Shown here: positions 11,952-22,725 of the stretch, piece by piece
How the letters are laid out: each line of letters begins with the position of its first letter
How positions within the stretch are numbered: position 1 is the first letter of the stretch
Virus record (IMG/VR): IMGVR_UViG_3300042894_004149
Location: 1 to 23,998 of that record
DNA: 23,998 nt
Source of the DNA: a virus
Strand: one strand, 5' to 3'
The notes under the pieces: model-generated
What the model was told of the DNA's origin: nothing
What the model saw: only the letters and a program-made list of their open reading frames with translations
The model's database searches: none
Translations under genes and position numbers: made by a program

Positions 11952-12029
11952 TTAGACTGGACTATAAGGATTTTTAAATCTATCGTAGCCGTCGTCTTCA
12001 GGATACACTGGGTATTCATTGTGTCTCAT
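11952..12029 (-). CDS. possible 25-residue peptide, Tyr/Asp/Pro-rich
   Basis: ATG 12029 overlaps the stop of the 495-aa gene as ATGA, and the TAA at 11954-11952 is two bases before the hydrolase ATG. This gap would otherwise be the only 76-base hole in the operon. The peptide begins MRHNEYPVYPEDDGYD and ends NPYSPV. It has no recognised family. The exact tiling is the only evidence that it is translated; it might instead just carry ribosomes to the hydrolase start. Confidence 0.45.
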   Translation of the reverse strand: MRHNEYPVYPEDDGYDRFKNPYSPV

Positions 12030-13513
12030 TTCTTACGCCCTCTACGCATGTTTAATTGCCAGCGAGCCAGTTGTCCTTTGCGACCTTTGGCATGCGAGGC
12101 CTTTTCTAGTTCAGCCATGGTGGCTTTTTTAGGAATACCGTGTCTTTGACTATCACCAGGTCGACCTGGACCTTTGCCGTCGGCAAAGTTTTCTCCTACT
12201 GTCTTAACAATTGGTTTTATTCTGCTCAATTCATAAACAATTTCATCACCATGATCAAACGCATTTGATTTATATCCCCAAGCAGTGGCATATCGTTGAA
12301 CCAATCTGCTGTATAATTTTGACCGACTCATACTATTTTGTCCTGGTTCAACATCTTTGCTGGCTGAAAATGCTATGTTTGCTGGTTGTTCAGTTTTTAG
12401 AAACTGTTTTATAGCTGTTAGTACTGTGGCAAATACTCGTTGAGAATCACCATTGCCTGTGGTTTCTAAACTGTTGTTTCTCCAAAACGAAACATTAACT
12501 TCATACGGTGTGGTATGTTCAAACATGACATGCAGATATGATCCATCATCTAGTGTGGCTAATGCATCATAGTCACCATGTTCACTTTTCTCCCATTTAA
12601 TGGAATAAGGTTGATCAAAGGCTTCTGCCACACCCGGCTGATCTATTTTTGCATTCATGCTGGTCAAATGTTTGACGTCACTGTGCTTTTTCCATTTGGC
12701 CCACATGTTCTTGCCCATGGCAGTTTGTGCGCCACTGGGCCAAATATTGGCACCCAGCATACGCATGACCGCATACATGTTTTTGGCTATACCATGCCCT
12801 TGCCATTTTGGGCTCACATACGTACTGACACTTTCTAAAGCTGTGCGAGTGTCATGCTTGATAAATGTAACACGGCCCACTTCTCGGTTGTTGATTCTTG
12901 CTATGACTTCGGGCATGTTATCCCATTGAGTACGTACTAGATATGTGATACCATTGATTTCTTCACTCCAACGGAATCCTGGACGCAAGACTTCGTAATT
13001 AAACTTTTCCAGGCCTTCTGCTAGTTCTGTATCAGGGCGTGATACAGATTTAAAATCGACATCAAACAACGGACCTGGCATGTAGCGACCAGATTGCGTG
13101 ACCATGCCTGCTTGTAGGCGTTGGACTATTTCCGGAGTCAAATCACGATTGCGCAGATATTTAGGAAACAAATGTGTTTCCACAGGTGCGTCTCCTTCCA
13201 GCTTTGATATGGCCTGCATTCTATGACGGCCATCATGCCCTTTGACCTGTGCTGGTTCGCTGAAATCGCCGGACTGCCATGCTTCGGGCACAACAATATC
13301 TAAAAATGGAGCACCAATGGTACCACCTGTACCAATGTGCCGTTCCATTCTGCTGTTGTCTTGATCTGTGAGCGGTAATGCCAGTCGTAAAAATGTACTG
13401 GGCTTCATTGCCACACGCAGACCACGATAATCAACTTCCTGATTCCATGGCACAGATCCTGCGCCTGTGCGATTGTCTATGTTGACTTCGTTAACAAACT
13501 CTTGTGCTCTCAT
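12026..13513 (-). CDS. capsid-targeted multidomain protein: ParB-like and GNAT-like domains plus basic tail (495 aa)
   Basis: Leader MRAQEFVNE|V matches the capsid-targeting pattern. Residues 30-120 contain KGHDGRHRMQA (91-101), the signature loop of ParB/sulfiredoxin-type domains, which include nucleases and CTPases. Residues 185-280 look like a GNAT acetyltransferase, with YVSPKWQGHGIAKNMY (232-247) as the acetyl-CoA loop. After VAE|A (297) comes a phage module containing FSASKDVEPGQNSMSRSKLY, and after VGE|N (441) a strongly basic tail rich in Gly, Lys and Arg with GQLARWQLNMRRGRKK at the end. The modules are therefore separated by the same hydrophobic-x-Glu tripeptide as in the 1084-aa protein. 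Both gene ends are ATGA overlaps. The ParB and GNAT activities are inferred from single motifs. Confidence 0.68.
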   Translation of the reverse strand: MRAQEFVNEVNIDNRTGAGSVPWNQEVDYRGLRVAMKPSTFLRLALPLTDQDNSRMERHIGTGGTIGAPFLDIVVPEAWQSGDFSEPAQVKGHDGRHRMQAISKLEGDAPVETHLFPKYLRNRDLTPEIVQRLQAGMVTQSGRYMPGPLFDVDFKSVSRPDTELAEGLEKFNYEVLRPGFRWSEEINGITYLVRTQWDNMPEVIARINNREVGRVTFIKHDTRTALESVSTYVSPKWQGHGIAKNMYAVMRMLGANIWPSGAQTAMGKNMWAKWKKHSDVKHLTSMNAKIDQPGVAEAFDQPYSIKWEKSEHGDYDALATLDDGSYLHVMFEHTTPYEVNVSFWRNNSLETTGNGDSQRVFATVLTAIKQFLKTEQPANIAFSASKDVEPGQNSMSRSKLYSRLVQRYATAWGYKSNAFDHGDEIVYELSRIKPIVKTVGENFADGKGPGRPGDSQRHGIPKKATMAELEKASHAKGRKGQLARWQLNMRRGRKK

Positions 13514-16500
13514 TGTGGTTGGTATTTTTTAACATCGTTGGCAAACTGTTTTTTAGTTGCTTGTACAATACCACCAAAACGTTTGTCAGCACGTTTGAAG
13601 TTGCCTTCTAGGTCTGATTTGCCTGCATCGGCTGCGGCAGCACGTTTGTATTGTGTTAACTTTTCGTTTGAAAGTTCGTTGAGAGCTTCAAACGGCCAAT
13701 CAGCGGAGCCTTGCTCTGATACATCTTCTTTGGTGGCAACATTTATGGCCTTACCACTACGCTCTGGATTAGGATCTTGTCTGCGCTTGCGTTGAGCTGC
13801 ACTAGCACGACCTTTTTTGCCTAGTGCATGTGCCTTGGCAGCCGGCAGGCATTTGGGTTTGCCTTCGCCAGGCTCTCGAGCACAGTCGCCTTTGATATTG
13901 CCTTTGGTGTCCATGCGCACCCATTTTTCCTTGTTGAACCAGTCATGTAGATTTTCTTCCAGTTCTTGCACTAGACTTTCTGTGGTTTTATTGCCCCAGT
14001 TGCTTGCACCTTTCTTGCGGCATTTAACTAATGCACCACTGGCATAAGCACTGGGCCATACTTTGTAACGACTCTTAACTTTGTAGTAGCAAGCATCTTT
14101 CTTTTCGTTCATCAATTCTTCACTGACCATCTCGCCACCACAATGCGGGCAACTTTCACTATGTGACTGTTGTTCTTGTACACTTTCTTTTGGAACACAG
14201 TTAGGAACTTGTTTACCACCTTTGTTTTTCATACCTACTTGCTTATGTGTATCCCAGCAGGCTTCTTCTAAATCTATACCCTCGTCAGTTTTCTTAGTAG
14301 CATTTATATATTTTCTATATACCGACGCTGCCTCAGATTTTCCTGCAGCCTTAGCACGTTGTTCCATTGCCACTGCGGCTTGGATCTTATGTGCGTGACT
14401 ACGACCACTGTTACGGATCTTTGACACACTGGCTCTAGCATCCTCTGCTGTAGCAAATTTTAAACCAGTGATAGTTCCTTTAGGATTTTCATCTGTGTAT
14501 AAATCGCTATGCTTTTTACTATTAGCAGGTTGTCCTGGTTTTCTTGCAATTCTAGAATTATCTTCTTCAATATCTTCATTCTTCACACAATTGGGATATG
14601 TTTTACCAAACATTTTTTTGTTACCTTCTTTGTGATAACCTTTCCAACAAGCTTCATCTAAATTAGTATGGTCTACATGAGTTTCACACATGCCACAGTC
14701 AGGGCAAGTCATCTCCATTTCAACACTTTCCGTGTGTTTTTTCTTGCCGGCGCAGTGAGCCTTTTGCGAGAAGCCCTTGGGATGACTACAGTTGATACTG
14801 CTCTTGTACTTTTGGCTCCAGTCTTCAGACATGCCTTTGGGTTTCTTGCCTGCTTTCTTCATGGCAATGGCAATGGCCGCCTGTTGTGCAGCATTTGCAG
14901 CTTCCATCACACTTTCGTGACAATTCCACTTGCGTAAGGCCAAGGCTTTACGAGTTGGTTTGCCATTGGGCTTTTTCATTGGACCTTTGACACCTGACAT
15001 TCTGGCGCAGAAACTCTTACGGCGTTTGGCAGCCTTGCTGCCTGGTTTGAGTTTACTGGGCTTGGTAGTGACTGCAGTCTGTAGTTTACTACCAGGATGT
15101 TCTCTACGATAGCTGGCCACACCTTTGGCATTTAATCCACCAGTTTTGTTCTTGCCAGATTTCTTTTGCCAAGCCGCAGTTTCCAGCAGTGTCTCATCAT
15201 CTACTGATTCAAAATCTTCCCAAATTTGTTCAGGATCAACACTGAGTTGTTTGGCCAGTGCACCAATCCAGTCTTCAATGATATCAAATTGACTGTCTAG
15301 ATCTTGCGTTACATCTTGAATACCGTTTATTAGATTCAAGTTTTCTGTCACACGTCGATTAGCAGCCCGCATAAGGCTCACTGTTTCATCAAGCCCATTC
15401 AAGGCCTGTAGATGATTCAGTTGGTCAACGGTTTTTTTTTGAGTGTGTTTGGTAGTCTGCTCTAACGGGCCTGGCCTGGCATCTTCCTGAGCCATAGATC
15501 GAAATGGAGTCATTGCTTTCTTTGCAACTTTTGGCAGGCCTCCTGTGGGGTCGACTCGGGTGGCCAATCTATTGTTGCCTAGACTTTTGGTTTCTCTATC
15601 ATCACGTTTAAAGTTTGGATTTTTATTGTAGAAGTCTTGACTTTGTTTATTCATCCGGCTGGTATCTTTTTCGCCTTCCGCCATGCCTTCTTGCATGCCT
15701 TTTAATAGTTCTTGTGCTCTTTCAACACTAATCATATATCTACCAGTGCGATTAGGATCTGCTGCCTTTTGTAGATATTCTTTGCTAAAACCTTTTGGTG
15801 TTTCTGCCGCCGGTTTATTATCTGCGGGTGCAGTTACTGTTGCACTTGGTTTCAATCCACCAGTAAACCCACCTTGTCCGTCAGGGGTTACTCTAGCCTG
15901 TGCACCAGCAGAACCCAATGCCATTGCACCAGTTAATGCGGCTGTACCTAGTGTTTCTTTCCAACCTTCATCCATGCCCTGTTGTGGATCATTGGGATTG
16001 GTAGTCAACACAAATTCTTTGCCCTGATTGAACAGTTTGGCCTGCATTGTTAATGCGGCTTTGTTTGCGGCAGCTTTATCGCGGAATGAATATGGATTGC
16101 CCTGTTTGTCTCTAATGAGTTTGCCATTGAGACGAATATACCAGGTACGTGTATCAGGTGCAGGGTCCTGACCTTCAGGATCTCTTGCACCACGAGCAAA
16201 GCCTGTGCGATTTGCATGATAGTTTCTGCCTGCTTCGCCTAGATCTTGACCCATTCGGGCCAATGCTCGTTCAACTTGCTGAACCCAACCGCTGACGTCA
16301 CTGGAGCCAATTTCTTCTGTATCACCCACAAAGTCTGCAACATCATCAATGGCCTGTGTTACCAACACAGGGCCATACTTGCTCAATAAGTCTGTGCGTT
16401 GTGTCAGTATCCTTCTAGTGATAGCACCGGCCACTGGGTTTTGTTCTTCATTTTCGGCCACACCACGTTGACCTGGCACAGATCCAATATTTTTATAACT

Positions 16501-16764
16501 GGCCAGTTTAGCATCCATGGCATCCAATGCTGCAGAGATTGTGTTGTAATCAGACAAAAATGTCATGCCAGCATCTGGACCTTGATTTTTAACAATGCTT
16601 TTGTATTGACCCAACAAATGTCTGGCTTGCCAATAAGCAATAGGCATCATTTCGCGACCTATTTTTAAATCAATGTCTTGACTACGATTCACTGCAACAG
16701 CCAGTTGCTGAAATACCTTGTATGCATCATTCGTGCGATTTTCAAATAGGTCTTGTACTAACAT
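13510..16764 (-). CDS. lysine-rich multi-module protein, candidate capsid-internal polyprotein (1084 aa)
   Basis: The protein is a string of short basic modules divided by hydrophobic-x-Glu sites. Leader MLVQDLFE|N is at residue 8. Modules include RTWYIRLNGKLIRDKQGNPY (206-225), a DUF6321-like RRKSFCARMSGVKGPMKKP (581-599), a segment with INCSHPKGFSQKAHC (657-671), two copies of a CW...GK...PNCV unit (706-726 and 836-856), a GRSHAHKIQAAVAMEQRAKA block (787-806), ACYYKVKSRYKVWPSAYASG (891-910), DWFNKEKWVR...CLPAAKAHALGKKGRASAA (941-990), and a C-terminal KRFGGIVQATKKQF (1061-1074). Two CxxC pairs (687-690 and 872-875) could bind zinc. Candidate cuts lie after LLE528, VME621, MSE647, LDE704, IEE734, LEE834, VQE864, LEE937, VSE1017 and LNE1030. 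I infer that it is packaged and cut into peptides. TAATG and ATGA junctions couple it to both neighbours. Confidence 0.75.
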   Translation of the reverse strand: MLVQDLFENRTNDAYKVFQQLAVAVNRSQDIDLKIGREMMPIAYWQARHLLGQYKSIVKNQGPDAGMTFLSDYNTISAALDAMDAKLASYKNIGSVPGQRGVAENEEQNPVAGAITRRILTQRTDLLSKYGPVLVTQAIDDVADFVGDTEEIGSSDVSGWVQQVERALARMGQDLGEAGRNYHANRTGFARGARDPEGQDPAPDTRTWYIRLNGKLIRDKQGNPYSFRDKAAANKAALTMQAKLFNQGKEFVLTTNPNDPQQGMDEGWKETLGTAALTGAMALGSAGAQARVTPDGQGGFTGGLKPSATVTAPADNKPAAETPKGFSKEYLQKAADPNRTGRYMISVERAQELLKGMQEGMAEGEKDTSRMNKQSQDFYNKNPNFKRDDRETKSLGNNRLATRVDPTGGLPKVAKKAMTPFRSMAQEDARPGPLEQTTKHTQKKTVDQLNHLQALNGLDETVSLMRAANRRVTENLNLINGIQDVTQDLDSQFDIIEDWIGALAKQLSVDPEQIWEDFESVDDETLLETAAWQKKSGKNKTGGLNAKGVASYRREHPGSKLQTAVTTKPSKLKPGSKAAKRRKSFCARMSGVKGPMKKPNGKPTRKALALRKWNCHESVMEAANAAQQAAIAIAMKKAGKKPKGMSEDWSQKYKSSINCSHPKGFSQKAHCAGKKKHTESVEMEMTCPDCGMCETHVDHTNLDEACWKGYHKEGNKKMFGKTYPNCVKNEDIEEDNSRIARKPGQPANSKKHSDLYTDENPKGTITGLKFATAEDARASVSKIRNSGRSHAHKIQAAVAMEQRAKAAGKSEAASVYRKYINATKKTDEGIDLEEACWDTHKQVGMKNKGGKQVPNCVPKESVQEQQSHSESCPHCGGEMVSEELMNEKKDACYYKVKSRYKVWPSAYASGALVKCRKKGASNWGNKTTESLVQELEENLHDWFNKEKWVRMDTKGNIKGDCAREPGEGKPKCLPAAKAHALGKKGRASAAQRKRRQDPNPERSGKAINVATKEDVSEQGSADWPFEALNELSNEKLTQYKRAAAADAGKSDLEGNFKRADKRFGGIVQATKKQFANDVKKYQPQ

Positions 16765-17379: not shown

Positions 17380-17820
17380 TCACGCCCTTACCTCTTTTAG
17401 TGTTGCACGTAGTTGCCAGGCAAACTTGTTGGTTTGACTCAATCTTTCGGCAATGAAATTGGCAATGTCTTGTTTGTTTTCTTGGGTGGCGGCAGTAAAA
17501 CATTGGTTCAACAAATCAACCAAGATTTCACTGTCGGCCAGCAATTCTTCTACCATGAGTCGGGCGCGAGGTATTTTGCTTTGTCCGGGTATTACACTGA
17601 GTTCTAAAAGACGTTCCATACTGCCTGGTGCATATTCGCCCAGGCTACGGATATATTCTGCTATGGGATCCACTGCAGAATAGGCATCTTCATATATTTT
17701 CTGAAAAAACTTGTGATACTGATAAAAGTCAGGAGTTTCTACATTCCAATGAAAAGCATGTGCTTTCACATAGTGTGCAAACTGTGTTCCCAACAGTGTT
17801 TTTAACAAATCAGCTAACAT
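17380..17820 (-). CDS. dps: Dps-like ferritin-family protein (146 aa)
   Basis: AHAFHWNVETPDFYQYH (20-36) matches the Dps signature HWNV-x-x-P-x-F. The intersubunit ferroxidase residues can be placed from E. coli Dps: H51 = His24, H63 = His36, D78 = Asp51 and E82 = Glu55, all with the right spacing. The fifth residue, D67, is Gln40 here, so metal binding may be altered. Dps proteins form 12-subunit shells that oxidise iron and protect or compact DNA. It lacks a basic N-terminal DNA-binding tail and a capsid leader. Its place among candidate internal proteins suggests protection of phage or host DNA, but the role is inferred. TAATG coupling upstream and a one-base gap downstream bind it into the operon. 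Confidence 0.85.
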   Translation of the reverse strand: MLADLLKTLLGTQFAHYVKAHAFHWNVETPDFYQYHKFFQKIYEDAYSAVDPIAEYIRSLGEYAPGSMERLLELSVIPGQSKIPRARLMVEELLADSEILVDLLNQCFTAATQENKQDIANFIAERLSQTNKFAWQLRATLKEVRA

Positions 17821-18017
17821 TACTTTTTCCGTTTCTTGTATGTTTTGTAAGACTCTGGCGTGTTTGGAGTCTCGTCATTAGAGTATTTATGCCCGGCAAA
17901 GAAACTGCCGGCATTTCGAGAAATCACACCGCCCATGGGTGTGGCAACGGTGGCGATACTGCCTGAACCTGTGGCACCTGCTGATGCATTTTCACGTATA
18001 AATTCTTGTGCTCGCAT
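17820..18017 (-). CDS. small basic-tailed protein with leader MRAQEFIRE, candidate internal capsid protein (65 aa)
   Basis: The leader MRAQEFIRE|N is the cleanest match in the window to the T4 internal-protein targeting sequence. The mature part would be only 56 residues: a Gly/Ala/Ser-rich stretch (ASAGATGSGSIATVATPMGG), then a polar region, then a Lys/Arg-rich end (KTYKKRKK). Such composition fits a small DNA-associated internal peptide rather than an enzyme. The gene has TAATG overlaps at both ends (18017 and 17820). No known family is named. Confidence 0.7.
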   Translation of the reverse strand: MRAQEFIRENASAGATGSGSIATVATPMGGVISRNAGSFFAGHKYSNDETPNTPESYKTYKKRKK

Positions 18018-18301
18018 TATCTTATCCTCACTGTGGAATCTTGTATGGTAGCAGTGCCTTCTGCTACTCGCAAGTTCTGTATATTTAACCCTGCAGAAGT
18101 GCCCGGTACCAGCTCATAACGGATCTTGTAATCACCAGGTTCTGCCAATATAGGTATCATTTCTTCAAGATAAACATTTTCCCAGATCCATGTGCGTTCT
18201 GTGAACAATTCATTGTTCACATACAGTCTATAGATAGGCAGTTGACCAGTCTCATAATCACAGTGAACATCAGCCACAACTTTCACAAATTGCTGTGTCA
18301 T
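18017..18301 (-). CDS. unknown beta-rich protein (94 aa)
   Basis: The sequence alternates short hydrophobic strands and turns (IYRLYVNNELFTERTW, DYKIRYELVPG) and looks like a small beta-sandwich, as found in phage structural or carbohydrate-binding domains. I recall similar small proteins in T4-like phages but no function. It has no capsid leader. It sits between the 1475-aa gene (ATGA overlap at 18298-18301) and the 65-aa tagged gene (TAATG at 18017), so it is co-translated with presumed cargo. It could be an assembly partner or chaperone for its neighbours, but nothing in the sequence shows this. Confidence 0.6.
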   Translation of the reverse strand: MTQQFVKVVADVHCDYETGQLPIYRLYVNNELFTERTWIWENVYLEEMIPILAEPGDYKIRYELVPGTSAGLNIQNLRVAEGTATIQDSTVRIR

Positions 18302-21300
18302 ACTTTTACTTCTTTTACACTACCAATTTCCCAGTCTGCCACACCGTACTGTGCTTTCATTAATTGTCTGGCCAAATGTGCATTTTGTGCAGTCACAGCA
18401 ACATCAATGTAGCCTGTGTAGGTCGGCTGTTTTATTTTTACAGGAGCAGACCATAGTTTATAGGTTGTGTTGGGATTTTTAGTTTCAGCAACTTCCTGAT
18501 TGACCAATTGTCTTGCTAAGTTTTTTTGTTTGTTAATATTCTTAGGAGTTCCTGTGCCACTTTCGTGATGATTGAATACGCCATACAGTTTGATGACTGT
18601 GGGATTGCGACCTTCAATGGTATAATATAAACTAAGGTCTCTGGTTAAATGTGCGTGTCGTAATTTTGGTATTGCAGACCCCAGTGGTCCTGCAGCAATA
18701 AACGGAGAGTCGTTGCCCCAGGGTTGACCTGGCGTGACCATTTTAAACTTTAAAAATTCTTGTATTTTATTTGCTAAATCAGGAAGTTGCTCTGATTTGT
18801 TCTGTACTGTTTTATCAAACAAACTGCTTTTTTTGATTTCAAAATTATTTGTAGATTCAGTCAGAGCCCAAGGTTCTTGATCAAGCTTGATCAAAGCATT
18901 GATAAATGATTCAGTCACTGACTCACTCATTATTGGATACACTTCAGTGGGAACTGCAATACTGTTGCTTCGTACCCATTGTCCAGCAACTCTGTTAGCA
19001 TCTTCTTGGCTGTTGCCTATACCGCTGAATCTGTGGAGTTCTTCTCCAGTGTTGCTGTCTACTACTTTCCACGCACCAGTGAATGTACCGGGTGTTGCTC
19101 GTTGTTGTGCTAGGTCTATAGTAGATCCTGGAACAGTCCTTTGTGCAAATTCAAGATCAAGTGGAACGTCTTCTACACCCGGTATCGGACGTGGAGTTGG
19201 TAATTGTTGTGCCCTTGGAGTAATGATAACATCATCTGTGGTCACTGTCATTGGGAAGTTTGTTGGATCAGTTTCATGCGCAGCCGCCAATGCTGACAGT
19301 TCATTTGGTGCACGAACTTCTACATAGCGTGCCATGTTGTCTAGCAAGCTCACTGTCCATAGTGGTTCAACTCTTGAAGCGCCAACAGTTGTTGGTGTTG
19401 TTGAATTTACTTCAATGCCACTTTCTGTGTCGATCACTGTCCAGTCTGTGGGTGCAGTGCCGTTTCTGTTGGCCCAGGCCTGCAACACATAGGGTATTTG
19501 TTGTGGTACCGCACTGAACATGAATCTTGGCCGAGCTTCCGCTCCGGTGGCACGATTTATAATTTCATAACGACCATTGGGATCACTTTGTCGCCCAGGA
19601 GTTGCAGTGTGGCGTATATCTCCGCCCACTACTTGCATGCCGGAATCTAAAACAATATAGTTGTAAAAAGCAATGTCGTTTTCAGCGGCATAGAGTTTGG
19701 CCTGTGCATCAGCCTTTTCGGCACTGGTAGCAGTGAACCTTGCATATTCTTGATAGGTGTCAGGATTGACCATGCGATACTGTTGTTTGTCTTTGGGCTT
19801 GTCTTGGCCGAGTTGACGTTGCTCCGCGGCAATTCTTGTCAATTCCTCTCGGTTGATTTTTCCAGCCATGTATTCTGACAACAGGTTAGCAAAGTCTGCT
19901 TCGGTAGCAATCTTAAAAGTTTTCTTTCCGGTAGCAGGATTTCTACCGTGTTCAATCTCTGTGCCACTCAATGCACGATACAGTTTCTTTAGATACTCTT
20001 GTCGATACTTTGCAGGATCCACTGCTGCATCAGTGGCCACAACAAATCGTTCTAGTGTCGTTTGAATCTTATCAAAGTTTGCATCCAACCAATCACCACC
20101 TGGAGATCTAAATTCAATATAGCCATTTTTGACATTGATTGAACTGTACTTGTCTGTCTGGGCGTTGTGTATCACACGAGTGGCAGCTTTGCTTAGATTT
20201 TCACGCATGCGATCCAACAAAACTTCTGCAGTTTCGGGACGATTTTTTATATTGTTCATGACAATATTGTACACTGACTTGGCGTAGGTATTACCCAATC
20301 TTCCAAATTCTTTAGCCACATAGTTGTCACCCAACAACAATGCCAGTTTGACAAGATCAAGATTTTTCATTTCTGCATCAAGTCCCGGTACACTCACATT
20401 GATATGCAGGCCAGTTTTGTTTGCTTTGCTGGTATAGCAACCATTGGAGTCGGCCCACTTTTTGACTTTTTGCATGTCCTTGGCCAGTTCATCCAGAGGC
20501 AAGGGTGGGCTAATAAATTCTAATCCGCGATCATTGCCACTATTGGCTTCTAAGCTGCCGTCAGGCTCAACAATATACGCACCTTGACTATATGCATCGT
20601 CGCGATCTATGTTGTGATAATCGTCGCCCCACATCACTGGTCGACCAATGGCCTTTTCAAAACTTTCAGCCACTGCTTCTATACTGTAAGTGCCATCGCC
20701 CATGCCATCGTCTTCGGTCCAGTGGGGCCAAGTAATCCTAGTACTATAAGCACTTTCTACATCCTGCATGTCTCGTATGCCTTCAGATCTCAACCATTGT
20801 TCTTCGTCATACTCGCCATCATCCTTTTTTTCATCTCTAAATTCTTCAAGAGCTTCGTCTCTGGATTCGCCGGCTTCTTCCCACAGATAATTGGAATAGT
20901 TCAGTATGTCGTCTTTGGTTATGTTATAGTCTGAATCTTTGTCAAGGTAAGCAATAATTTCTTCTGGATCAATGTTGTTGGCCACCCATTCAGCAAAGAA
21001 ATCAAATCCGTTATCGGTCCAGTCTTCGTAAATTTTAGTTTCACGCCAATCAAGGTAATTTGACTCAAGCTCAGTTCGCAACTCTCTTATGGCTCTGGCG
21101 CCGTTAAAATCGCGGTCATCAAAAAATTCAATGATTCCATCAATATCCCGGGCAGTTTCGTTGTAATTGTCATAATCAGGCTCTGGCTGAAAATCATACT
21201 CGCCGCCTTCAACATTGGGCACAATCATTTCAAATTCAATGCCGGCTCGTGCATCAACAGACTTTGACAACTTTCTTAGGCTTTTGCCACCCATGTTGAT

Positions 21301-22725
21301 TTCGTCTAGTTGTTCAGCTTCACTCAATGGTCGTTTGAAAGCGGCCAACTGTTCAGCCAATCGCTTGACCAGGCCGTCTGGGCGTAGTTCTTGTGGATGA
21401 CCTTGTGCGTCGGTGTTTAGTAAAAAAGCATTGGCTGCACGACCAATGGCGCCAGGACGTACATCCTGAGTAATGGCCATCTCAAATCTGGGATCATGCA
21501 TTTCAGCAGTGGTAGGAATATACCCACTGGCTTCTGCCACTGTGGACTTTTCAAACAGTTCCGGATGCATGGCACCGTATCGACGCATGATAATGCCGGC
21601 TGCTGCATTGGCTTCATTTTCTTCAGGTGATCCTGTGTGTCCAGAGTCGGGCGCTATTGTTTGTGTTTCACCTTGACGTTGATGAGTGAGTTCGTGTGCG
21701 CAGGTACGCAACACATCCATGATGTGCCGATTGCCTATGCTGATTTCCAATTGGTTTGTGTCGTGATCATAACGACCAAATGTTCGGTTTCGTGCTGACC
21801 AAGCTGGATCTCTACGCAATCGTATTTGTGGTTCTGTTTCTAATTCAAGTTCTTTTGCACAGAATGCCACAAAATCTCGTAAAATACTTTCATCATCGGT
21901 TTCACTCAAGAACATTTTGGTACTAGGGCTAACACCATCCGGAGTTATTTCTACTTCGGCCAGCTTCTTTTTGCTATTAAATCCATAGGTCATCCTGGGC
22001 TTGGACATTATGGTGGATTCTACTAGACTTAACTCTTCATCATGTGCAGCATTACGTGCATCATGCAATCGAGAAATATCACCTTGTGTACGTAGCATTT
22101 TGTACGCAAGATTTTCTCCGCCCAGTTCGCCGTTTTGGGCCAATCCGGCCAAGCGCATGCGTTTGATTTTGTCAATCAACTGTGAGATTTTGGTCAAATT
22201 TTTGCCAGCAACTGCTGAATCAATTCTGTGCTTGAGATCATTGTATTTGCTGCGAACTGCATTGTCATTCACTGTGGCAGGTCTTTGTCGTGGTATATGC
22301 ACCCAATCGTTGTTCAACACACTGAACACACCTTGACTGACTGCAGGCTTGTCTGCGTCTTCTACATAAAGCTCAACTTCATATCCGCCAATGGTGATGT
22401 TGTGGGTGTCATTATATTGGTACTTTTTAGCATCAAACAATTCACGGTACACTTCGTTATCGGCATGTGGCATTCGAACTACCAAATGTAGATCAATGTC
22501 AGAATGTGGAGTGTATGTGTAGCCGGCATTGCTACCCAGCACTGTGATGTCTTTGACGTCTATATTGGCAAGCCCAAGATGTTCGCGAAAATCTTCTGCA
22601 ATGGTCAGCAGTTGATCGCGAACTTCGGGGCGCATGTGCTGGCCTTGCCAGATCACAGGGTTCAATTTGTCATTGAATTTTACTGCGTCGGCAAGGTTAT
22701 AGGAATCTAATTCGGTGATGTTCAT
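18298..22725 (-). CDS. giant polyvalent protein: nucleotidyltransferase, HExxH metallopeptidase, amidoligase, repeat modules (1475 aa)
   Basis: Domains in order: (1) a nucleotidyltransferase, 35-150, with LGSNAG at 63-68 and SDIDLH at 75-80 (GS...DxD) and a third acidic strand VELYVED; (2) a zinc metallopeptidase, 240-395, with AHELTH at 343-348 and a likely third ligand in ENEANA near 371; (3) an amidoligase, about 490-920, with GIEFEM (495-500), EPDGSLE (720-726), LEFISPPLP (735-743) and TGLHINVS (771-778), interrupted by a very acidic insert around 505-680; (4) degenerate 50-residue repeats between 980 and 1265; (5) a C-terminal module with LARQLMKAQYGVADWEIGSV. Hydrophobic-x-Glu sites fall between parts (LVE235, VAE398, LDE475, VTE1272, LTE1290). 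It matches the published idea of 'polyvalent proteins' that phages carry into hosts. The leader MNITELD is a weak capsid tag. It is the first gene of the operon. Confidence 0.8.
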   Translation of the reverse strand: MNITELDSYNLADAVKFNDKLNPVIWQGQHMRPEVRDQLLTIAEDFREHLGLANIDVKDITVLGSNAGYTYTPHSDIDLHLVVRMPHADNEVYRELFDAKKYQYNDTHNITIGGYEVELYVEDADKPAVSQGVFSVLNNDWVHIPRQRPATVNDNAVRSKYNDLKHRIDSAVAGKNLTKISQLIDKIKRMRLAGLAQNGELGGENLAYKMLRTQGDISRLHDARNAAHDEELSLVESTIMSKPRMTYGFNSKKKLAEVEITPDGVSPSTKMFLSETDDESILRDFVAFCAKELELETEPQIRLRRDPAWSARNRTFGRYDHDTNQLEISIGNRHIMDVLRTCAHELTHQRQGETQTIAPDSGHTGSPEENEANAAAGIIMRRYGAMHPELFEKSTVAEASGYIPTTAEMHDPRFEMAITQDVRPGAIGRAANAFLLNTDAQGHPQELRPDGLVKRLAEQLAAFKRPLSEAEQLDEINMGGKSLRKLSKSVDARAGIEFEMIVPNVEGGEYDFQPEPDYDNYNETARDIDGIIEFFDDRDFNGARAIRELRTELESNYLDWRETKIYEDWTDNGFDFFAEWVANNIDPEEIIAYLDKDSDYNITKDDILNYSNYLWEEAGESRDEALEEFRDEKKDDGEYDEEQWLRSEGIRDMQDVESAYSTRITWPHWTEDDGMGDGTYSIEAVAESFEKAIGRPVMWGDDYHNIDRDDAYSQGAYIVEPDGSLEANSGNDRGLEFISPPLPLDELAKDMQKVKKWADSNGCYTSKANKTGLHINVSVPGLDAEMKNLDLVKLALLLGDNYVAKEFGRLGNTYAKSVYNIVMNNIKNRPETAEVLLDRMRENLSKAATRVIHNAQTDKYSSINVKNGYIEFRSPGGDWLDANFDKIQTTLERFVVATDAAVDPAKYRQEYLKKLYRALSGTEIEHGRNPATGKKTFKIATEADFANLLSEYMAGKINREELTRIAAEQRQLGQDKPKDKQQYRMVNPDTYQEYARFTATSAEKADAQAKLYAAENDIAFYNYIVLDSGMQVVGGDIRHTATPGRQSDPNGRYEIINRATGAEARPRFMFSAVPQQIPYVLQAWANRNGTAPTDWTVIDTESGIEVNSTTPTTVGASRVEPLWTVSLLDNMARYVEVRAPNELSALAAAHETDPTNFPMTVTTDDVIITPRAQQLPTPRPIPGVEDVPLDLEFAQRTVPGSTIDLAQQRATPGTFTGAWKVVDSNTGEELHRFSGIGNSQEDANRVAGQWVRSNSIAVPTEVYPIMSESVTESFINALIKLDQEPWALTESTNNFEIKKSSLFDKTVQNKSEQLPDLANKIQEFLKFKMVTPGQPWGNDSPFIAAGPLGSAIPKLRHAHLTRDLSLYYTIEGRNPTVIKLYGVFNHHESGTGTPKNINKQKNLARQLVNQEVAETKNPNTTYKLWSAPVKIKQPTYTGYIDVAVTAQNAHLARQLMKAQYGVADWEIGSVKEVKV

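Follow-up and report, generated by a model that had tools for sequence, protein, structure and literature searches.

Gene and predicted pieces

The window (the whole stretch of 23,998 nucleotides analysed here) is a 24-kb virus record in which the ORF listing places a 1084-residue ORF on the minus strand at 16764..13510, stop included. The plus strand has stops throughout 13510..16764 and no coding frame, and a plus-strand reading of this interval was dismissed for that reason. The record is only a fragment of the genome that harbours the gene; an identical protein is encoded by two larger virus contigs, L001 and L002, one of which was checked and has the same gene order as the window. An earlier note on this DNA had read the protein as a polyprotein with hydrophobic-x-Glu tripeptides (HxE) at almost every module boundary, and all ten of its tripeptides (LLE528 to LNE1030) were found at the residue numbers given. 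The pattern [LIVM]xE occurs 24 times in the protein, where composition-shuffled copies give 11.7 ± 3.0 (p ~0.0005); the stricter, T4-like [LI]xE is mildly enriched by the same measure (11 versus 6.3, p ~0.05). Further edge sites, additional to the first list, are LFE8 at the putative capsid-targeting end, VAE104, MDE266, MAE363 and MNE887.

The predicted products, all on the minus strand and mostly of 2.5–11 kDa, begin with residues 1–8, MLVQDLFE (16741..16764), a capsid-targeting-like peptide ending in LFE that matches neighbouring genes and relatives in form and position. It is followed by a product of residues 9–104 (16453..16740) that ends in (QR)GVAE104, a GVAE joint word recurrent in relatives; by one or more products within 105–266 (15967..16452), with an uncertain inner site at LGE177 and an end at MDE266, the edge before the GWKETL module; and by that module itself, 267–363 (15676..15966), which ends in MAE363 and has 25 variants among relatives, with HxE before it in 7/7 contexts. 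The limits of residues 364–460 (15385..15675), which have few relatives only, are uncertain. An acidic ‘IWED’ module, 461–528 (15181..15384; charge −12.6), then ends in LLE528 and lies directly before DUF6321 in relatives, where this arrangement is found in 66 places. The DUF6321 module, 529–621 (14902..15180), ends in VME621 and also occurs as stand-alone genes; this 93-aa piece has a pI of 11.2 and a charge of +21.5, and Pfam PF19846 matches residues 537–613 with 74.7 bits against a cut-off of 28.5 (E=9.2e-21).

Downstream of DUF6321 lie a AANAAQQAAIAIAMKK peptide, 622–647 (14824..14901), which ends in MSE647 and has HxE upstream in 3/3 contexts, and a WSQKYK..SHPKGFSQKAHC plus CPDCGMC unit, 648–704 (14653..14823), which ends in LDE704 and has HxE at its start in 26/26 non-cyanophage contexts. 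Two ACW...PNCV copies (705–727 and 835–857) stand directly behind LDE704 and LEE834, as had been noted. The first belongs to a peptide of residues 705–734 (14563..14652) ending in IEE734, with HxE kept in 11/19 non-cyanophage contexts, and the second to a peptide of residues 835–864 (14173..14262) ending in VQE864; between them is the RKPGQPANSKKHSDLY..GTITGL module, 735–834 (14263..14562), which ends in LEE834 and at whose start cyanophage Bellamy gp123 has its Met. Behind the second ACW peptide lies the CPHCGG zinc-knuckle-like peptide, 865–887 (14104..14172), ending in MNE887. Next is the DACYYKVKSRYKVWPSAYASGALVKCRK module, 888–937 (13954..14103), ending in LEE937, where Pfam PF19197 (DUF5872) gives a weak match to residues 894–957 (22.2 bits, under the curated cut-off of 27.5). 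The chain closes with the LHDWFNKEKWV..KPKCL module, 938–1017 (13714..13953), which ends in VSE1017 and is preceded by HxE in 15/16 non-cyanophage contexts; a spacer peptide, 1018–1030 (13675..13713), placed by sequence and ending in LNE1030; and the LSNEKLTQYKRAAAADA module, 1031–1084 (13513..13674), with HxE at its start in 15/16 contexts, including MKPSDFLTE/ and MSNILKGLQLNE/ (a slash marks the edge).

The modules had been described as Lys/Arg-rich, which holds for most units but not for 461–528, 865–887 and 648–704, which are acidic or near neutral. The CxxC pairs, carried by two units, were located at 687–693 and 872–875 and are of zinc-knuckle type. No enzyme or peptidase domain was detected in the protein with Pfam and PHROGs, and no functional match for any module in Pfam, PHROGs or solved-structure searches; PHROGs instead returned many overlapping ‘unknown function’ families, each of which matches just one piece of the protein (phrog_727, for example, the region around 491–622). 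No relatives of solved structure were found by sequence. AlphaFold predicts a small three-helix model for DUF6321 with confidence (pLDDT 87.6); it has no fold match in the PDB (best E 7.4); a model of 887–1017 was discarded (pLDDT 40). We found no paper on DUF6321 function. DNA binding or condensation seems the most likely role for this +21.5 unit, and the acidic 68-aa piece upstream across LLE528 would make a sensible partner, masking a DNA-binding DUF6321 peptide until cleavage. A giant virus that infects algae has a DUF5872 annotation as well (PMC12085832), which together with the weak match here hints at module exchange across virus realms.

Three neighbouring genes in the window open with targeting-like sequences (MRAQEFVNE, MRAQEFIRE and MRASEFLIE). 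The first of these starts a 495-aa protein at 12026–13513 (minus strand) with weak GNAT and weak DUF6934 matches, a GVAE297 joint and, after VGE441, a strongly basic tail; it resembles another cargo chain, one that includes enzyme domains. At 18298–22725 (minus strand), a 1475-aa protein combines NTP-transferase-like, HELTH zincin-like and amidoligase segments with a QLDE joint at 475, and is possibly a cargo protein of the polyvalent type. A Dps/ferritin-like gene (17380–17820, minus strand) lies within the cluster of targeting-led genes, and a BFVD entry joins Ferritin/Dps and a DUF6321-like fold in a single 679-aa chain.

Module shuffling and edge tripeptides

Matches to the protein were found by tblastn in 526 phage records, chiefly those of T4-like cyanophages and pelagiphages, all of them to pieces only: no homologue in these records covers 80% or more of the query. 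The first 80 viral-contig relatives are mosaics of the window protein's units, and across ~330 loci the shared modules stand in 47 different adjacent pairs, most units having several upstream neighbours. Relatives range from ~150 aa (one or two units) to more than 1200 aa. In bacterial genomes a single weak locus turned up, from the MAG of a gammaproteobacterium, and it gives nothing on the host. The cyanophage mosaic homologues (L086, L087, L088 and L332) adjoin terminase genes (gp16/gp17 region) and are named T4-GC119 ‘hypothetical’ or ‘structural’, with the S-SM1 relative among T4-GC119. Cyanophage relatives are without an obvious capsid-targeting N terminus and are located between terminase genes, which speaks against head cargo. 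One of them, S-SCSM1_29, shares units with the window protein, has edges at VSE63, FNE263 and VSE436, and is annotated ‘virion protein’; the virion proteome of S-SCSM1 has been measured (PMC9602691).

For each unit, upstream sequences were collected, contexts at least 40% alike were collapsed to one, and HxE was scored at the module edge per context; the contexts that enter these counts are partly related by phylogeny. At the exact edge in the first set, HxE precedes the WSQKYK..SHPKG unit in 19/19 contexts (0.97 expected), LSNEKL..YK in 8/9, GWKETL in 7/7, WFNKE in 6/6, AYASG in 3/3 and ACW in 8/11. Because the offsets had been picked on this set, models and offsets were then frozen and applied to new loci, leaving out contexts that resembled earlier ones; HxE was found exactly at the edge in 39/75 held-out contexts, and in 54/75 when a small shift was permitted, where 3.5 are expected. 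Cyanophage AYASG and WFNKE modules score 0 at the exact offset because their edges are mostly shifted by one residue (IEE/GKKDACY, IDE/EGLRDWF), and for AYASG in cyanophages just 7/15 contexts show HxE close to the module start. A true weak spot is ACW outside the cyanophages, with 2/6 in the held-out set. Pooling the non-cyanophage contexts (n=89, with differing flanks) places HxE at the edge in 88%, compared with 0–18%, usually ~3%, at 19 other upstream offsets; P3 is L in 53, V in 15, I in 9 and M in 4 of these contexts, and P1 is E in 80. Linkers differ in length and sequence, yet the (D/E)E ahead of the module is kept, and DUF6321 has HxE within a few residues upstream of its first Trp in 25/32 differing contexts.

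Two candidate statistics did not survive. Uniform depletion of HxE within modules is untrue: it holds for ACW, YKxxA and WFNKE and not for DUF6321 (‘LNE’) or GTITGL (‘AME’), and the presence of HxE inside these cores means that the tripeptide alone cannot suffice. ‘HxE anywhere in the linker’ was dropped as weak, since the reversed motif ExH is likewise enriched somewhere in linkers, and scoring was for this reason tied to the exact position; at the edge itself ExH shows no enrichment. By that test, conservation across shuffled contexts indicates that the module-edge tripeptides are under selection. The check suggested in the earlier note, that modules should shuffle while the tripeptide at each edge stays conserved, thus came out in its favour among the relatives.

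The same edges recur as the starts of proteins. In short relatives, which carry one or a few modules behind a targeting peptide, an internal edge corresponds to the capsid-targeting site at the N terminus (MKPSDFLTE/, MKASEFINE/), and the unit follows straight after it, as in MKASEFINE/GWSQKYK, MKPSDFLTE/LSTEKL and MRINEIEIVNE/DWQKTNK. DUF6321 occurs alone in S-RIP1, HTVC115P, MEP401, WH11-B and Skadi-3, which are small non-T4-like phages; these stand-alone proteins begin with MAKSPAWQRKEGK or MAKTPAWTRKEGK, aligned with LLE528/TAAWQKKSGKNK, and some end in ..LRAWNC where the window protein runs on to HESVME621/. Two stand-alone DUF6321 genes (L334 1510–1761 and L337 1453–1704) have capsid or head-assembly genes beside them or close by. 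In cyanophage Bellamy, gp123 opens with M-SNPRIPRKPGQPANSKKHSDLY, which corresponds to the unit behind IEE734/DN in the window. Since the targeting-site, stand-alone DUF6321 and gp123 starts all coincide with edges, the comparison indicates that the residue after the edge Glu begins a unit. Units of the chain therefore occur elsewhere as independent proteins, and site-like tripeptides are kept at their boundaries while they shuffle, as is expected of a polyprotein.

The chain could instead stay whole, as a structural or ‘polyvalent’ virion protein of several domains in which HxE is simply a part of acidic flexible linkers or of each module's N-cap. Linkers are indeed acidic and hydrophobic, with ExH enriched in them too, and polyvalent phage proteins of 2–15 domains are known (PMC5512222). 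Such a reading is poorly matched by the single sharp peak in position, at P1, that modules unrelated to one another share, by edges that are identical with targeting-site ends and stand-alone start codons, and by the lack of any HxE in 5/6 stand-alone DUF6321 proteins, and we consider it unlikely. Shuffled modules with a cutting signal at nearly every joint argue that the chain is most likely cut during head building, and cutting at the conserved joints is likely.

Candidate protease and known head cargo

Cleavage by T4 gp21 follows L/I-X-E. In IPIII the N-terminal ten residues combine head targeting with the cut site; residues 8 and 10 matter for processing, which an Asp at position 10 prevents (PMC9026906). 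Peptidase_S77, the family of the gp21-type prohead protease, is encoded in four larger relatives (G004–G007, records of 249–524 kb), with conserved EVDHP and GVSSRG motifs. The gene lies in a portal/gp67-like/gp21/gp22/gp23 cassette; apart from S77, which is a family match, the members of the cassette were named by their order and by resemblance. In three of these four relatives the major capsid protein has LAE right before a conserved, presumed mature start, SSAGTTTAGNIATLN or near-identical. Contigs L001 and L002, which encode the identical protein but are fragments, have no gp21 gene, a point against the gp21 reading. A 65-aa protein encoded in the window at 17820–18017 (minus strand), MRAQEFIRENASAGATGSGSIATV, resembles the region of the presumed gp23 maturation site in relatives (..LLAESSAGTTTAGNIATLN).

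Taken together, the shuffling of modules, the coincidence of edges with targeting sites and start codons, and the protease genes of relatives give good support to the proposal of a polyprotein with hydrophobic-x-Glu cut sites. The interpretation in the earlier note is thereby supported in part; release within the capsid and DNA-binding or host-acting roles of the peptides are its predicted side. We consider it probable that a T4-like phage packages the protein as a head-cargo polyprotein and that gp21 cuts it in trans. A mechanism is proposed where the first eight residues act as a capsid-targeting sequence and carry the entire chain into the core of the prohead. During head maturation, the T4-type prohead protease (gp21, Peptidase_S77) would cleave after hydrophobic-x-Glu at the joints and free about a dozen small proteins, most of them basic and some with CxxC pairs. 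The freed peptides would stay with the DNA in the virion and may be ejected into the host.

The closest precedent is provided by the T4 internal proteins IPI–III and Alt, which have a capsid targeting sequence and are processed by gp21 (PMC9026906, PMC3012670). Like them, the window protein opens with a short N-terminal peptide ending in hydrophobic-x-Glu (MLVQDLFE/) and would yield mostly basic small proteins; its larger relatives encode a protease of the same family (S77), and a diverse, fast-changing cargo is likewise shared. The T4 proteins have one protein per targeting sequence and a single cut (a C-terminal one as well in Alt), whereas the window protein has one targeting sequence, many modules and a site at nearly every joint. 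In giant phages, head proteins such as SPN3US gp245 and phiKZ gp175 are cut after x-x-Glu by prohead proteases homologous to gp21, several times per protein (PMC10052503). Nearly all of these sites (A-x-E) belong to propeptides at the N terminus, which are lost, and multiple cuts in SPN3US head proteins fall nearly always in discarded propeptides (PMC10052503), whereas the pieces here are conserved modules.

Polyvalent phage proteins, for which an analogy with RNA-virus polyproteins has been drawn and which are reported to be scarce in cyanobacteria (Iyer et al. 2017, PMC5512222), resemble the window protein in uniting many domains in one packaged polypeptide, as presumed here. They embed zincin- or assemblin-like peptidases and enzyme domains; the window chain has neither, and consists of small modules with a proposed cutter in trans. 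We found no source that ties DUF6321, DUF5872 or phrog_727 to proteolytic release and, in the open-licence literature, no paper that describes prohead-protease cleavage of a cargo polyprotein. The window protein is best described as a candidate variant of the T4 internal-protein/prohead-protease system, new as a multi-module chain.

Alternatively, the chain could be cut and yet be a scaffold-like core protein, as with T4 gp22, gp67 and gp68 or the SPN3US propeptides; its fragments would help the prohead to assemble and then, for the most part, be expelled. In T4, the cutting of gp22 and other core proteins gives many fragments, most of which leave the head (PMC9026906), and the long SPN3US propeptides are cut several times (PMC10052503). 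The modules here, unlike spacer propeptides, are strongly conserved and occur as stand-alone genes in other phages; moreover, S-SCSM1_29 is recorded as a virion protein, and the phages already have their own gp22-like and gp67-like proteins. There is little chance, in our estimate, that a scaffold role accounts for the chain.

The QGVAE joint and the spread of modules

Many joints read QGVAE. These use GTG in 75/86 and GCG in 80/86 cases, codons that the same genes otherwise use at 17% and 10%, and they share a near-identical 15-base word, CAAGGTGTGGCGGAA, dispersed in L001–L080 and related loci. With one mismatch allowed, the word occurs 126 times in the loci, 125 of them in the QGVAE frame; its reversed form has zero occurrences. 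Other joints (QLDE etc.) have mixed codons. A codon-biased word almost confined to a single reading frame is why this joint type seems to spread as DNA and then to be kept as protein, and the spread is probably by recombination between modules. That the edges are mainly recombination seams, a dispersed DNA word for module swapping whose amino-acid meaning is incidental, would fit the codon bias and the near-identical word but is very improbable, and a DNA word was rejected as the main cause even of the GVAE joints, given the in-frame count of 125/126, the mixed codons of the QLDE and other joints, and the fact that most edges are not GVAE.

For packaged cargo cut by the head protease, a wider extension is conceivable, although we hold it only tentatively: large aquatic T4-like phages may have a general joint system in which the sites for the prohead protease also serve as seams for exchange, in part through one repeated DNA word (CAAGGTGTGGCGGAA, read as QGVAE). 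One targeting-led chain could then take up any peptide or enzyme domain, package them together at a fixed ratio and have them freed inside the head, which would amount to a true polyprotein strategy for injected cargo. If the polyprotein reading is correct, it would explain a large family of ‘hypothetical’ proteins of aquatic T4-like phages, spread over the 526 phage records, and would predict the exact ends of a dozen virion peptides. A targeting peptide combined with HxE joints would provide a rule for spotting injected cargo, and the chains would be natural cases of multi-payload packaging into T4-type heads. Tailed phages would then have a polyprotein strategy in which the head protease, and not a built-in peptidase, does the cutting.
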